Shown: positions 44,657-51,055 of the stretch, piece after piece
How the letters are laid out: each line of letters begins with the position of its first letter
How positions within the stretch are numbered: the first letter of the stretch is position 1
Source of the DNA: Geobacter sp. AOG1
GTDB lineage: Bacteria; Desulfobacterota; Desulfuromonadia; Geobacterales; Geobacteraceae
Direction of reading: 5' to 3'
Length of the DNA stretch: 64,000 nucleotides
Assembly: GCF_019972315.1 (NCBI RefSeq)
Contig: NZ_BLIZ01000001.1
Coordinates: 558,001 to 622,000, forward strand
Notes under the pieces: model-generated
What the model was told of the DNA's origin: nothing
What the model saw: the letters and a program-made list of their open reading frames with translations, nothing else
Databases searched by the model: none
Translations under genes and position numbers: made by a program

Positions 44657-44712
44657 GGGTTCCAGCTCCTCGAATGCTCCCCCGTCGGGGAGGGAGTTTC
44701 CATGGCGATCGT

Positions 44713-44730
44713 AATACAGGGATCGTGCCA
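44713..44730 (-). promoter_or_regulatory. Sigma-54-like promoter for the amidohydrolase
   Basis: Read on the minus strand, TGGCACG (44730-44724) is a perfect -24 and CTGTATT (44719-44713) stands ten bases from the GG, at exact spacing, with T replacing C in the -12 GC. The gene starts 57 bp downstream. The divergent gene encodes a sigma-54 activator, which fits. Activity is untested. Confidence 0.55.
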
Positions 44731-44732
44731 GG

Positions 44733-44795
44733 AGCGCTGAGTCTGCCTATCATACCGATAGCGCTGGATAAATACAGCAGTAAATGGATATCCAT
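44733..44795. promoter_or_regulatory. Candidate activator binding sites upstream of the sigma-54 promoter
   Basis: Two copies of the palindrome AGCGCT (44733-44738, 44760-44765) are 27 bp apart, and a 12-bp perfect palindrome ATGGATATCCAT lies at 44784-44795. All are in the gap between the amidohydrolase promoter and the divergent activator. They may be enhancer sites or autoregulatory operators for that activator. Confidence 0.35.
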
Positions 44796-44853
44796 GAAAA
44801 ATTTCTTCGGGGATGTCTTGACACTGGATGAAAGGGTCATGTACATTTTGTGC

Positions 44854-46347
44854 ATGAAAACGACATTGAAACTTTCTGCTGCGGATCGTGAGTTTTTCGC
44901 CACGGTGGCCCGGGCCGCCTTCACCAACCCCTTCAGCCAGGAACGGGTGGAGTTCGACCGGCAGATCGCCGGGGCGGCCCAGGCCGTTTCCCGGGACGAG
45001 CTGGTTATCAGAACCATCTCCCGGGTCGAGGAACGGGTGCGCAGCCTCATGACGGCAGGGAAAACCGACCTGCGCCGCTACAGGGGGGAGGACCGGGAGA
45101 TCGTCCGGACGGTGGTTCTGTTCGACGTCTACCACCGCTTCCGCTTCGAATTCGACGCCTTCATCCTGCGCCAGATCGAGGCGGGGGACACTCCCTGCCA
45201 GGTCCCCTTTGCCCGGGACATCTTCGCCAGCCTTGTCGCCCAAGGGATCGACAACGACGAAGCCCGGCGCTACTTCGCCATCTTCTACCAGATCCGCCGC
45301 GCCTTCTATTTCATCGAAAACAGTCTCACTGGCCTCGCCCCCTCCATGGACACTCTCCGGCTGCACCTCTGGAACAATGTCTTCACCTCCGACATCAACT
45401 GGTACGAGAACCATCTCTGGAACCGGATGGAGGATTTCTCCACCCTGCTGCTCGGCGAGACCGGGACCGGCAAGGGAGCGGCAGCGGCAGCCATCGGCCG
45501 TTCGGGCTTCATCCCCTTCGACGAGCGGAAGGGGTGCTTCAGTGAGAGTTTCACCCGCAACTTCATCTCCCTTAACCTCTCCCAGTATCCGGAATCGCTC
45601 CTGGAATCGGAACTCTTCGGCCACAGGAAAGGGGCCTTTACCGGCGCCATTGAAAACCACGAAGGGATATTCGCCCGCTGTACCCCCCATGGCTCCATAT
45701 TTCTCGATGAGATCGGCGACGTCTCCATCCAGGTACAGATCAAGCTTCTCCAAATTCTCCAGGAACGGACCTTCTCGCCGGTCGGCGGTCACGACCGGCT
45801 CCGCTTCCATGGCCGGGTCATTGCCGCCACCAACAGGCCCCTGGACGAAATGCGGCAACAGGGGCAGTTCCGCGATGATTTCTACTACCGGCTCTGCTCC
45901 GATATCATCACCGTGCCAGCGCTGCGCCAGCGGCTCCAGGAGGAGCCACGGGAGTTGGAGGTCCTGGTGACCGGCATTTTAACGCGTATGATTGGTCCGG
46001 AAGGGAAGTCCATGGTGGGATTGGTCTGCGAGAGCATACAGAGGGATCTGGGGCCTCGTTACCCCTGGGGGGGGAATGTCCGGGAACTGGAGCAGGCGAT
46101 CCGACGCATCATCCTCACCCGCCACTACGCCGGGGACAGCCGAGCCATATCTGGTGGACTGCACGAACAGCTGGTTGCCGGCATCGAAGCGGGAACCACG
46201 GATGCCCAGACATTATTGGCAGGATACTGCTCTCTCCTTTACCGCCGACACGGCACCTACGAAGAGGTCGCACGCCGGACCGGCCTCGACAGGCGAACGG
46301 TGAAGAAGTATATCCAGTGGAATGAAGCGACCTGCGACGGCCCGTAA
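44854..46347 (+). CDS. Sigma-54-dependent transcriptional activator with unknown N-terminal domain
   Basis: 497 residues. A ~185-residue helical N-terminal region has no receiver, PAS or GAF I recognise. The AAA+ domain has Walker A GETGTGKG (about 200-207), the sigma-54 contact loop GAFTGA (about 260-265), Walker B IFLDEIGD, and sensor FYYRL. The C-terminal HTH (YEEVARRTGLDRRTVKKYI) is Fis-like. The loop GAFTGA is intact, so it should activate sigma-54. It is divergent from the amidohydrolase. Alternative in-frame starts are Met at 44839 and 44794; the ribosome-binding site does not decide between them, and 44854 is the most conservative. Confidence 0.88.
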   Translation: MKTTLKLSAADREFFATVARAAFTNPFSQERVEFDRQIAGAAQAVSRDELVIRTISRVEERVRSLMTAGKTDLRRYRGEDREIVRTVVLFDVYHRFRFEFDAFILRQIEAGDTPCQVPFARDIFASLVAQGIDNDEARRYFAIFYQIRRAFYFIENSLTGLAPSMDTLRLHLWNNVFTSDINWYENHLWNRMEDFSTLLLGETGTGKGAAAAAIGRSGFIPFDERKGCFSESFTRNFISLNLSQYPESLLESELFGHRKGAFTGAIENHEGIFARCTPHGSIFLDEIGDVSIQVQIKLLQILQERTFSPVGGHDRLRFHGRVIAATNRPLDEMRQQGQFRDDFYYRLCSDIITVPALRQRLQEEPRELEVLVTGILTRMIGPEGKSMVGLVCESIQRDLGPRYPWGGNVRELEQAIRRIILTRHYAGDSRAISGGLHEQLVAGIEAGTTDAQTLLAGYCSLLYRRHGTYEEVARRTGLDRRTVKKYIQWNEATCDGP

Positions 46348-46360
46348 CAAGGAGCGTTTT

Positions 46361-49117
46361 CTATCCGGCATGCTCCGTTCGCACCTGCTCACCCTCACGT
46401 GCGGCCGGCAACGAGACGAAAAAGGTACTCCCCTCCCCAAGGGTGCTTTCCACCCAGACCCTTCCGCCGCACCCGCTCACGATCTCCTTCACCAGCGCAA
46501 GACCCAGGCCGGTCCCGCTGAAAACCCGCCGGTCGCTGCTGTCCACCTGGTAAAAGCGGTCGAATATCTTATCCAGGACTTCCGGTGGCATTCCGACACC
46601 CTCATCCCGTACCCAAATGGTAACGCTTTCAGCTCCGTTCCGCTGCGCACCAAGAATGACGTCCCCACCCTTGGGAGAATATTTGACGGCATTGGAGAGG
46701 AGATTGACCAGCACCCGGTGCATGTACCCCGCACTTATGGGGACTGGGGACAGATCGGGAGAAATCTGTTTAAGTATCCGATGCCGGCTGTCCCGTTTCG
46801 CGAAGAGGGCAGCCGCCTCCTCCAGTAGCGGTCCCAGTGCCAAGGGCGTCATCCCGTCAAGGGGCACGATGGCCTTCAGATTCTTGAGGTCGAGCAGGTT
46901 GGTGAGCAGTTCATCCAGGCGCATGTTCTCGCTCTGGATGATTCCGAGATACTGGCGCAGTTCGGCTTCGTCCACGCTGTTTTCCAGGAGAAACTCCGTG
47001 TATCCGCGCATGGCGGTGAGTGGCGACCGTATCTCGTGGCTGACGATGGAGAGCAGCTCGTCCTTCATGCGCACCATCTCTTTCAGGTCGGTTATATCGG
47101 ACGTGACCGCGATATGGACCCGCCTGCCATCGACCCAGGCAATCTCTTTCCGCACACACTGATACCATCTGCCGGTGAGGGTGTTCTTATAGGCAAACGT
47201 CTGCTGGGTACCCGGTTCTTCCCCCGCCGGGAACACGCAGGGGGAGGGTGCACCGCAATGAATCACGTCATGACACGGTTTTCCCTGCCAGCCGGCCCCG
47301 AAGATGGCGGTCCCATATTTGTTGAGGGCGATGAGTTTACCTGTCGCCGCGTCGACGACATAGACAATGACGCTCAGTTCGTCAAATATGGTGGAAATCT
47401 GGACGAACTGGGCATGGAAGGCATCCTCCGCCCGTTTGCGTTCGGTGATGTCCTCCACGAACCCCTCAAGGAAGGCGACGTCGCCTTTGTAGCCGCGCAC
47501 GACGCGGATGTGCAGGTTGGCAATGAAGAGTGAACCGTCACTGCGGCGATAGTCGACCTCGCCCCGGACGAAGCCGTCCGACGCCAGCGCCCTGCCGATG
47601 AGGTCGCTGCGTTGCTCGGGTCTGACAAATATCTGTCCTGGGATATCCTTAACGGCCGCAATTATTTCTTCCGGTGAGTCATAGGCGTATAACTGTGCAA
47701 GGGTAGAATTCACGTACAGGAACCGCCCCTCCACCGTGGACTGGAAAATACCGATGGGAGCATACTCGAAGATGTTCCGGTATTTTTCCTCCGACGCGCG
47801 CAACGCCTCCTCTGCCCGCCGACGGCCGGAAATGTCGCGGGCCGTCACCAGGATCCGATCCTGCCCGCCTATACGTGCTCTCCGCATGTTCACTTCAATC
47901 CAGAAAAGGCGTCCATTACGGTCCTTGCTATGCCACTCAAACTGTTGCGGATCACCCTGGGCGGCTTTTCTCATCCACTCTATCGCTTCTTTCCGGGTAT
48001 AGGGAGGCACACCGGAACTCAAGGCTTCGACACCAATGCTGCAGGCCTCCTGCCTCGAATAGCCGGACATTTCACACATGCGCCGGTTCACGTCGAGAAT
48101 GTCGCCGGTCTCCAGGTCGTGGATGAAAATGGCATCGTTGACCGAATCGAAGATCGCCTGGAAACGCTCTTCGCTAAGCTGCAACTCTTCAGCCCGCCGG
48201 TTGCTCAGGGCGATTTCCCTGACCAGCTCGGCAGTCTTGCCGGCAACGACCCTGCGCAAGGTAAAGGTCCAGATCGCCAACAGCACGACGAGTCCCACCG
48301 CGGCGGCTGCCGCTGCAACCAGGTACTTCGGGTATGTCGTCCCGAACGGCGGGGTCCCGTACCACTTTTGTTCAATGGACTTCAGCTCTGTCGGCGAAAT
48401 GCGGGCAAATCCCTGTTCAACCATCTTCAGCAGGGCTGTGTTCCCCTTTTTCACGGCCCGGTGGAACTTGCCGGAATAAAGGGGAGGAGATTGTCTGAAC
48501 TGGTCGTAGATGCCTTTTTTGTAGAGATAATAGAGCGCTGGCGGCCTGTCGACGGCAAACACCACCACCTTCTGATCTCGGGCCGCGTCAATAATGGCTT
48601 CGTAACTATTGAACTCGACAAGCTGGCTGACGCCCTGCTGCTTCAGGACGTCGATGACGGCATCGCCCGTCTTGACGGCGACCGCAAATCCCCTGAGCGA
48701 TGTGGCGTTGTTGATGCCGGAGATATTTCTGTGAAAAAAGACCGGGACGTCGATGGTGTAGTATGGCGGGGAAAAATCGTAGATTCTGGACCGGCGTTCC
48801 GTGAAGAAGATGGTATCGATGACGTCGAACTCACCCGCCTCCATCCGGCGCCGGGCCTCATCCCAGTCATAGCCGTGGATCTCGGCCCTGATGCCGGTTT
48901 TCTGTTCCCAGAGTCTCCATTGATCGATCAGGATCCCCTGGAGATGTCCCTCGCTGTCCTTGAACGCGAACGGAGGGTAATTGTTGTCCATCACCACCTT
49001 GATGACGGGGGGAGGAGTCAGCGGCGGCGGAGGTCCGGCAAGACAGACCGAGCCCACAGCCAGCATCAGCCAGACAAGAACGGACAAACCTGGCAGTCTT
49101 GCATTTCCTGCACGCAT
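46361..49117 (-). CDS. Sensor histidine kinase with periplasmic SBP_bac_3 and PAS domains
   Basis: 918 residues. A signal peptide (VGSVCLAG) leads to an extracytoplasmic solute-binding domain (~45-265) of the amino-acid/arginine type (VIKVVMDNNYPPFAFKD, FDVIDTIFFTERRS). A membrane helix (~275-297) is followed by three PAS domains with PAC motifs (VTARDISGRRRAE, EDITERKRAED, TSDITDLKE), a HisKA with SIVSHEIRSPL (His694), and an HATPase (LVNLLSNAVKYSP, DEGVGMPPE, SGTGLGLALVKE). It likely binds a small molecule in the periplasm. It converges on the sigma-54 activator (13 bp), and a terminator-like leader lies upstream. Confidence 0.92.
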   Translation of the reverse strand: MRAGNARLPGLSVLVWLMLAVGSVCLAGPPPPLTPPPVIKVVMDNNYPPFAFKDSEGHLQGILIDQWRLWEQKTGIRAEIHGYDWDEARRRMEAGEFDVIDTIFFTERRSRIYDFSPPYYTIDVPVFFHRNISGINNATSLRGFAVAVKTGDAVIDVLKQQGVSQLVEFNSYEAIIDAARDQKVVVFAVDRPPALYYLYKKGIYDQFRQSPPLYSGKFHRAVKKGNTALLKMVEQGFARISPTELKSIEQKWYGTPPFGTTYPKYLVAAAAAAVGLVVLLAIWTFTLRRVVAGKTAELVREIALSNRRAEELQLSEERFQAIFDSVNDAIFIHDLETGDILDVNRRMCEMSGYSRQEACSIGVEALSSGVPPYTRKEAIEWMRKAAQGDPQQFEWHSKDRNGRLFWIEVNMRRARIGGQDRILVTARDISGRRRAEEALRASEEKYRNIFEYAPIGIFQSTVEGRFLYVNSTLAQLYAYDSPEEIIAAVKDIPGQIFVRPEQRSDLIGRALASDGFVRGEVDYRRSDGSLFIANLHIRVVRGYKGDVAFLEGFVEDITERKRAEDAFHAQFVQISTIFDELSVIVYVVDAATGKLIALNKYGTAIFGAGWQGKPCHDVIHCGAPSPCVFPAGEEPGTQQTFAYKNTLTGRWYQCVRKEIAWVDGRRVHIAVTSDITDLKEMVRMKDELLSIVSHEIRSPLTAMRGYTEFLLENSVDEAELRQYLGIIQSENMRLDELLTNLLDLKNLKAIVPLDGMTPLALGPLLEEAAALFAKRDSRHRILKQISPDLSPVPISAGYMHRVLVNLLSNAVKYSPKGGDVILGAQRNGAESVTIWVRDEGVGMPPEVLDKIFDRFYQVDSSDRRVFSGTGLGLALVKEIVSGCGGRVWVESTLGEGSTFFVSLPAAREGEQVRTEHAG

Positions 49118-49134
49118 CACCGGGCTCCGGGACG

Positions 49135-49174
49135 AAAAAAAGCCGCACAATCATCATCTGCTGACAGGTGCGGC
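49135..49174 (-). promoter_or_regulatory. Attenuator-like terminator in the sensor kinase leader
   Basis: On the minus strand GCCGCAC (49174-49168) pairs with GTGCGGC (49148-49142) around a 19-base loop, followed by seven T (49141-49135). It ends only 17 bases before the kinase ATG and leaves no room for a promoter between. The upstream gene ends about 160 bp earlier. Confidence 0.6.
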
Positions 49175-49202
49175 CTTATTCTCCTTTGATGGTTCTGATT
49201 CG

Positions 49203-49223
49203 CAATGTAGCCGCGCTACATTG
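49203..49223. promoter_or_regulatory. Perfect 9-bp inverted repeat near candidate promoter
   Basis: CAATGTAGC and GCTACATTG are separated by CGC. A TTGACA (minus, 49244-49239) is 15-16 bp away, so the palindrome would overlap the -10 of any promoter there. It may be an operator or, in RNA, a hairpin that competes with the attenuator. Confidence 0.55.
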
Positions 49224-49332
49224 TCGTAGCAATAGTACTGTCAAATCAGGCTTCGTCAAGTACGCCCGCCGGTCACATTGCCCTTGTCCCGGTGTTGTAA
49301 ACGGCACCAGCTCCCTGAGCAAAACGCGGCGG

Positions 49333-51009
49333 TTATCCCCGCTTCAGTTCGTAAGGCCACATCATGATGCCGCCATCCAGGAAGCGTGTCTTGTCGAAGC
49401 CTGCTCCATCCAGTATTTTCTGTGCTTCATAGCCGCGAAGACTGATTTTGCAGAAGGTAACGATCTCCTTGTCCCGGGGGAGGGAGTCCAGTTTTTCACG
49501 CAGCATCCCCAGCGGAATGAGTTTCGCTCCCTCGATCCCCACCTCGGCATGTTCAGCGGGAGAACGGACATCAAGGAGGATAAAGTCGTCCCCCTCATCG
49601 AGTTTGCGCTTGACCTCCCGGGCAGAGATGCCCCGGGCATGGCCGGCAAGCTTGTTCTTGAGAATATCGGCGGCGACGAGAAGATTGTCCATGGCCGCCG
49701 AATAGGGGGGGGCATAAGCGAGATCGAGCTGGGAGAGCTGGTCGGCCGTCGCCTTGAAGGTTATGGCAGCTGCCGCCGCATCGAGGCGCTTGTCCACTGC
49801 CCCCTCGCCGACCGCCTGGAGGCCGAGGATCCTGCCGGTCTTCCGGTCCGCAACAATCTTCAGCGCAATCGGTTTGGCCCCGGGGAAAAAGTGGGCTTTG
49901 TCGGGGGCCGGAGAAAGGACGGTCTCCACCTCATATCCGCAGGCCCTGGCCTCGGTTTCGGTCATGCCGGTCTTCCCGGCGTTGACGGCAAAGACCTTGA
50001 GGATAGAGGTCCCCAGAATTCCCGGAAAGGACGCTTCGCCACCTGCCGCATTGATGCCGGCCACCCTCCCCTGCTTGTTTGCCGTGCTTCCGAGGGGGAC
50101 GAAAACCTTGGCGCCGGTGACCAGGTTAAGCGACTCGCAGCAATCGCCGCAGGCGAAGATGTAAGGATCGCTGGTCCGCATGCGGGAATCGACGGCAATT
50201 GCCCCGGTGGCACCTATCTCAAGCCCCGTCTCCCGCGCCAGGGTGGTATTCGGCCGCACACCGGGGGCAACCACGACGAGCTGCGCGGCGACCTCACCCT
50301 TATCGGCAACAACCCCCGCTACCCGCCCGGAGCCGACAAACCGGGTAACCCGGCAGGAGGTCATGACCTTGACCCCGTTCATCCGGAGATGCTTCTCCAC
50401 CAGTGCGGCCATCTCGGCGTCCAGCACCCCCGGCAGCACCTGGTCACGCATCTCCATCACCGTCACCTCAAGCCCCTGCTGTCTGAGCGCCTCCGCCGTC
50501 TCCAGACCGATGAGCCCGGCCCCCACGATGCAGGCCTGCTTACCCGCAACGGCACTGGCCTTGAGCAATTCCGCATCCTCAATGGATTTCACCGTCAGGA
50601 TCCCTTCAAGGTCGCTGTTGTCAAGGGGAGGAAAGAACGGAGTACTGCCGGTCGCAAGCACCAGCCGGTCGTAGCCGAGGGTGTATCTTCTCGCCGAGGC
50701 CGTCTCCAGAAGCTCCACCGTCCCGGCTTCGCGGTTGATGGCAACAGCCTCCGTGCCCGTAATGACCTTCACCCCCTTTACCTTGCCGAAAAAGGCCGCA
50801 TCACGCACAACACCGACCGGCGTGGTCATCAACTCCTTCACGTCGGCCACGGTGTCGGACACGTAGTACGGGATGCCGCATGCCCCGTAGGAGATGAAGT
50901 TTCCCCGGTCTACGAGCGTAACTTCAGCGTGGGGATTGATCCGCTTCGCCTTGGAAGCGGCCTTCGCCCCCGCGGCGTTGGCACCGATAACAACAATGTG
51001 CATCTTCAT
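49333..51009 (-). CDS. CoA-disulfide reductase / rhodanese fusion (CoADR-RHD)
   Basis: 558 residues. N-terminal FAD/NAD(P)H disulfide reductase: GANAAGAKAASK Rossmann start, active-site Cys44 in SYGACGIPYYV, IVGAGLIGLETAEALR (NAD), IFACGDC (FAD). From about residue 460 a rhodanese domain with DVRSPAEHAEVG and the catalytic Cys520 in VTFCKISLRGYEA. Such fusions reduce CoA disulfide or persulfide, and act on polysulfide (e.g. Shewanella Npsr). It starts at an ATG with GGAGG six bases upstream; the frame is open further but without support. It is likely the downstream end of a transcription unit with the adjacent rhodanese gene. Confidence 0.93.
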   Translation of the reverse strand: MKMHIVVIGANAAGAKAASKAKRINPHAEVTLVDRGNFISYGACGIPYYVSDTVADVKELMTTPVGVVRDAAFFGKVKGVKVITGTEAVAINREAGTVELLETASARRYTLGYDRLVLATGSTPFFPPLDNSDLEGILTVKSIEDAELLKASAVAGKQACIVGAGLIGLETAEALRQQGLEVTVMEMRDQVLPGVLDAEMAALVEKHLRMNGVKVMTSCRVTRFVGSGRVAGVVADKGEVAAQLVVVAPGVRPNTTLARETGLEIGATGAIAVDSRMRTSDPYIFACGDCCESLNLVTGAKVFVPLGSTANKQGRVAGINAAGGEASFPGILGTSILKVFAVNAGKTGMTETEARACGYEVETVLSPAPDKAHFFPGAKPIALKIVADRKTGRILGLQAVGEGAVDKRLDAAAAAITFKATADQLSQLDLAYAPPYSAAMDNLLVAADILKNKLAGHARGISAREVKRKLDEGDDFILLDVRSPAEHAEVGIEGAKLIPLGMLREKLDSLPRDKEIVTFCKISLRGYEAQKILDGAGFDKTRFLDGGIMMWPYELKRG

Positions 51010-51055
51010 GAATGGCCTCCTTGACTCTGAAATCCCTTGGGCAATGGTGATTCTA

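Follow-up and report, generated by a model that had tools for sequence, protein, structure and literature searches.

The region in front of a sensor histidine kinase gene in a 64,000-nt stretch of Geobacter sp. AOG1 DNA (the whole stretch analyzed, termed the window herein) has, in our estimate, about an even chance of being a leader that works as a promoter-proximal attenuator of transcription. RNA polymerase would start at a predicted sigma70 promoter near 49225 and make an RNA of ~90 nt, in which the palindrome forms a 5' hairpin and a short, purine-rich single strand separates it from an intrinsic terminator. Most transcription would halt at this terminator, and the kinase would be made only upon read-through. 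The latter could be basal leakage or could be boosted by a trans-acting factor, i.e., an RNA-binding or antitermination protein or the ribosome; we propose leakage or a trans factor because the terminator stem is too stable for the palindrome to oppose. A regulatory leader is likelier than a stray terminator because the arrangement of a promoter, ~80-120 nt, this terminator type, and a gene recurs across the Geobacterales. Against an attenuator stands the fact that the leader sequence has no homologue, and hence none of its elements is known as conserved.

Leader anatomy and folding energetics

Read 5' to 3' on the minus strand, the region runs TTGACG-N16-TACTAT ... CAATGTAGC GCG GCTACATTG ... 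AAAGGAGAATAAG GCCGCAC-N19-GTGCGGC TTTTTTT CGTCCCGGAGCCCGGTG ATG, and this reading, together with RNAfold predictions, established the anatomy and folding energetics of the leader (Table 1). An earlier note on this DNA had reported a terminator-like hairpin before the kinase, and its G-C-rich 7-bp stem, T7 tract, and 17-nt gap between the terminator end and the kinase ATG (49117) are read directly on this strand. The gap indeed offers too little space for a sigma70 promoter; the same note had seen no room for a promoter there. In the fold, flanking A-U and G-U pairs extended the terminator stem to 10 bp and a 4-bp inner stem was added, giving the terminator hairpin alone -19.3 kcal/mol; the fold of the 118-nt leader was better than those of 196 of 200 shuffles (z -2.7). 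The terminator is absent from the list of a consensus scanner because its 19-nt loop exceeds the scanner's limit of 8. On the opposite strand, the hairpin is weaker (-14.3 kcal/mol) and has no U tract, and a bidirectional terminator was rejected.

Table 1 Features of the kinase leader and its neighbors in the window, and further promoter-terminator leaders of the same genome (G000)
Feature	Positions	Strand	Details and basis
Sensor histidine kinase gene (SBP_bac_3, PAS domains, HisKA, HATPase_c)	46361-49117	minus	ATG 49117; Pfam, ORF
SD-like GGAG of kinase	49125-49128	minus	Between terminator and ATG; sequence
Intrinsic terminator	49174-49135	minus	GCCGCAC 49174-49168, GTGCGGC 49148-49142, T7 49141-49135; sequence and folding
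SD-like AAAGGAG, then AATA (no start codon)	49181-49187	minus	Single-stranded stretch between two hairpins
Perfect 9-bp inverted repeat, CAATGTAGC-GCG-GCTACATTG	49203-49223	minus	Leader 5' hairpin, or operator at ~+3 to +23
Predicted sigma70 promoter, TTGACG-16-TACTAT	49232-49259	minus	Score 9; predicted transcription start near 49225
Pyridine nucleotide-disulphide oxidoreductase gene with rhodanese domain (CoA-disulphide-reductase type)	49333-51027	minus	Upstream, co-directional; Pfam
Promoter-terminator leader L287	G000 169819-169916	plus	
Promoter-terminator leader L292	G000 162396-162488	plus	
Promoter-terminator leader L288	G000 3521923-3522020	minus	
Promoter-terminator leader L289	G000 3515493-3515590	minus	
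Promoter-terminator leader L290	G000 3625388-3625482	minus	

The promoter-like site lies 82 nt upstream of the terminator and matches 9 of the 12 consensus positions, and random 95-nt stretches contain a comparable site in ~1.6% of cases. This predicted sigma70-like promoter precedes the repeat, and the leader RNA predicted from it is ~90 nt long.

The 9-bp inverted repeat that had been noticed upstream of the terminator proved to be a perfect palindrome, with a hairpin of -9.8 kcal/mol. Such repeats (arm 9, loop ≤8) are in excess in the window, which holds 16 of them versus 0-6 in five mononucleotide shuffles, and the palindrome is not singular in this respect. Its sequence is unique in the 141 genomes of the order that were searched, even when one mismatch is allowed; a role as the operator of a regulon was rejected for want of a second copy.

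Two further candidates were set aside. A leader peptide in the window would use the frame AGGAGA-ATA, which crosses the terminator and meets the kinase start codon in an overlapping TGATG, and ATA is an unusual start. A CsrA sponge had been considered from GGA motifs, and the window's leader contains a single GGA.

Genomic setting of the kinase

The sensor kinase is 918 residues long, and both the SD and an N terminus resembling a signal peptide (MRAGNARLPGLSVLVWLMLAVGSVCLA) speak for the chosen ATG. A gene encoding a sigma54-interaction ATPase regulator (44674-46347, plus strand) is convergent with it, with 14 nt between its end and the stop codon of the kinase. On the other side, the oxidoreductase has orthologues that are 91-96% identical in three congeners. 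There, similarity ends at the oxidoreductase stop codon, after which a convergent cytochrome cluster follows, and no kinase was found next to the oxidoreductase in the three congeners compared. Because of this break and the missing kinase, the kinase and its leader are, judging from sequence comparison, an insertion or rearrangement peculiar to the window's genome among those compared. Likewise, the terminator seems to have arrived together with the kinase and not the oxidoreductase, because the block shared with the congeners ends at the oxidoreductase stop codon.

The hairpin could simply end the oxidoreductase gene, because the terminator, 158 nt behind the stop codon of this gene, is the first U-tailed hairpin encountered; the newly placed kinase would then be expressed by leakage or be nearly silent. 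The congeners agree with such a history insofar as the cytochrome cluster, and no kinase, directly follows their oxidoreductase. However, a promoter-like site stands between the oxidoreductase gene and the terminator, terminator and kinase, as reasoned above, seem to have arrived together, and this terminator type is associated with leaders elsewhere. We regard a simple terminator of the upstream gene as a rather unlikely explanation.

The nearest homologue of the kinase sensor domain (58% identity) is encoded in genome G010, where it is preceded by a full-length member of the leader family described below. Among the best 30 sensor-domain homologues fetched (G140 left out), a comparable leader terminator precedes the window's kinase and that of G010 only, and the homologue in G078 has a weak candidate. 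Because of this restriction to two homologues, the leader is, as far as these relatives indicate, not a property of the kinase family, and a kinase-specific leader was rejected. There is nonetheless a hint of joint inheritance, the sensor domains in G010 and the window being nearest homologues.

A promoter-terminator leader family in the Geobacterales

No match to the leader DNA was found in 57 related genomes, except for a terminator-only match in G052, or in the plasmids or phages searched. The G052 match and the G010 leader have a terminator type in common, GCCGCnC..TCAGC..GCTGA..GCGGC-Tn; when 58 genomes were searched for this pattern, 17 sites were found, versus none for the reversed pattern. 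Many of these sites are built alike, from a TTGACA, a 17-nt spacer, a -10 element often in the context GGTGTATGTA, ~30 nt, GGGAGGG-N-ATGG, a further 30-45 nt, and the terminator, behind which a gene follows.

A covariance model built from 14 leaders (R1), of which the promoter is not part, had matches at E ≤ 0.01 in 89 of the 141 genomes of the order, with up to 17 per genome. Weak R1 matches can be ordinary terminators, and only stronger, full-length matches should count as family, because 30.6 bits was also reached by five R1 matches within 29 control loci, whose terminators have the same stem sequence. About 48 leaders were examined (among them L237, L238, L241, L243, L245, L246, L247, L252, L269, L221, L152, L147, L267, and L284). 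A promoter score of at least 9 in the expected place was observed for 32 of 48 leaders versus 7 of 52 control terminators of identical stem sequence (Fisher p 4e-8), and a co-directional gene within 130 nt for 23 of 46 versus 7 of 34 (p 0.006), both p values being optimistic because the leaders are partly related by descent. The terminator type is associated with promoter-proximal leaders across the order. Rfam gave no match in nine loci holding family members, and no description of Geobacterales promoter-SD/AUG-terminator leaders was found in the literature searched; this order-wide set (TTGACA promoter, SD plus AUG, terminator) is apparently undescribed.

In a subgroup of the leaders (L245, L246, L247, L252, L269, and others), the AUG is the start of a hairpin with the sequence AUGGUUUCAC-GCGA-GUGGGGCCAU. 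Across 12 sequences, 92% of its cells pair, and sliding the partner lowers this to 39-55%; in seven pairs the variation is one-sided, no pair has changed on both sides, and a shuffle control was uninformative owing to the near-invariant 5' arm. The mini-ORFs of related leaders differ in frame and length, paralogous leaders in G007 being mutually frame-shifted, and a conserved leader peptide was rejected. In four genomes of one genus (g24), glgC carries a near-identical leader (L237, L238, L241, and L160) with the mini-ORF MVSRDEAL or MDSRDKAP. L220, which is in the same place as L243, has a mini-ORF that continues across the terminator as far as the next gene, where stop and start codon overlap as ATGA; in this instance, this points to coupled translation.

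Genes downstream of the family leaders have a breadth of putative functions. Sensor-type genes comprise two PocR sensors, SBP sensors (including an SBP-GAF sensor), and a receiver-PAS-kinase, while those of defence type and others encode a cas9-like protein, HsdM (hsdM), Abi-alpha, a caspase-domain protein, Bro-N, and Imm11. Additionally, we identified an addiction-module component, DUF4258, glgC, and many secreted proteins or lipoproteins. The cas9-like gene lies ~200 nt downstream of its family leader (L284, G002:C7:15326-15423). The window's own genome has five further promoter-terminator leaders (Table 1), and the genes behind them encode a trypsin-like protease, a zinc-ribbon-like protein, two lipoproteins, and a secreted protein.

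The window's terminator scored 30.6 bits against R1 (positions 66-109), a score also reached by the five matches in the 29 control loci. It ranks fifth in its own genome, behind four leaders with the promoter-terminator layout, one of which (at 3625388) likewise has no clear SD-AUG block and lies 31 nt before its gene. For family members, a sigma70 promoter is expected ~80-125 nt upstream of the terminator, and the window's promoter, at 82 nt with a score of 9, falls within this range. An SD plus AUG 30-45 nt before the terminator is absent from the window's leader, which has just AAAGGAGAATA 6 nt before the stem, and R1 positions 1-65 have no match in it. Tentatively, and with more doubt than confidence, the window's leader may be a divergent member of an undescribed order-wide Geobacterales family that would put sensor, secreted, and defence genes under common antitermination control.

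A free-standing small RNA gene acting in trans, placed before the kinase incidentally, would also account for parts of this picture. Its predicted product, an RNA of ~90 nt with two hairpins, a single-stranded purine-rich middle (AACCAUCAAAGGAGAAUAA), and a U tail, is built like a typical bacterial sRNA, and some family members have no gene close behind them. However, 17 nt separate the terminator end from the kinase ATG, and the kinase would then be without a promoter of its own; in the wider family close downstream genes are commoner than after control terminators. We consider a small RNA gene improbable.

Stem compatibility, known systems, and implications

In the earlier note, the palindrome and the terminator had been read as mutually exclusive stems of a riboswitch or two-stem attenuator, the GCGGC of the palindrome being complementary to the GCCGC of the terminator arm. 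This pairing amounts to 5 bp, a match equaled in 22% of terminator-arm shuffles. Forcing it raised the energy 18.7 kcal/mol above that of the minimum-energy structure, the best terminator-free fold of the leader was 18.6 kcal/mol worse, and the pairing had a probability of ~1e-4 in nascent RNA stopped before the descending arm of the terminator. It follows that the palindrome and terminator hairpins are compatible with each other rather than alternative structures. The covariance-model search of the leader that had been suggested as a check left the window's leader below the gathering threshold for every family in Rfam 15, and a known riboswitch or leader family was rejected on these empty searches. 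With no Rfam match and no homologous leaders able to show conserved alternatives, a switch between the two stems is highly improbable. Of the attenuator or riboswitch layout claimed previously, the attenuator part is retained, given the upstream promoter-like site and the recurrence of the terminator type in promoter-proximal leaders of related genomes, whereas the riboswitch part finds no support, given the lack of both Rfam matches and relatives.

Leaders with a terminator to be passed are found in several known systems. The phage lambda pR'/Q-type leader consists of a promoter, a short RNA, a terminator, and then a gene, and the window's leader resembles it in having a promoter-proximal terminator for polymerase to pass. 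Leader terminators regulated by ANTAR proteins (EutV, NasR, and AmiR; PMC3369931) are similar in that the terminator lies just before the gene with a hairpin upstream, and in control by antitermination, which is one of the possibilities for the window's leader. In ANTAR targets, a pair of small hairpins carries hexanucleotide loops (AnnGnn, with A1 and G4), and the second hairpin of the pair overlaps the terminator (PMC3369931), whereas the window's leader has a single upstream hairpin with a 3-nt GCG loop and no second small hairpin; an ANTAR target was accordingly rejected. Attenuators based on uORFs (uORF candidates, PMC11109978) share with the window the SD-like AAAGGAG before the terminator, and with the related Geobacterales leaders the SD plus AUG ~30-45 nt before terminators. 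However, the window has ATA and no start codon after the SD, and the encoded peptide is not conserved in the related Geobacterales leaders.

If the kinase is indeed controlled by read-through of its leader terminator, as the attenuator that we favor would have it, the level of the kinase would be set after transcription initiation. More broadly, recurring promoter-SD/AUG-terminator leaders before unrelated accessory and defence genes would imply shared post-initiation control in the Geobacterales.
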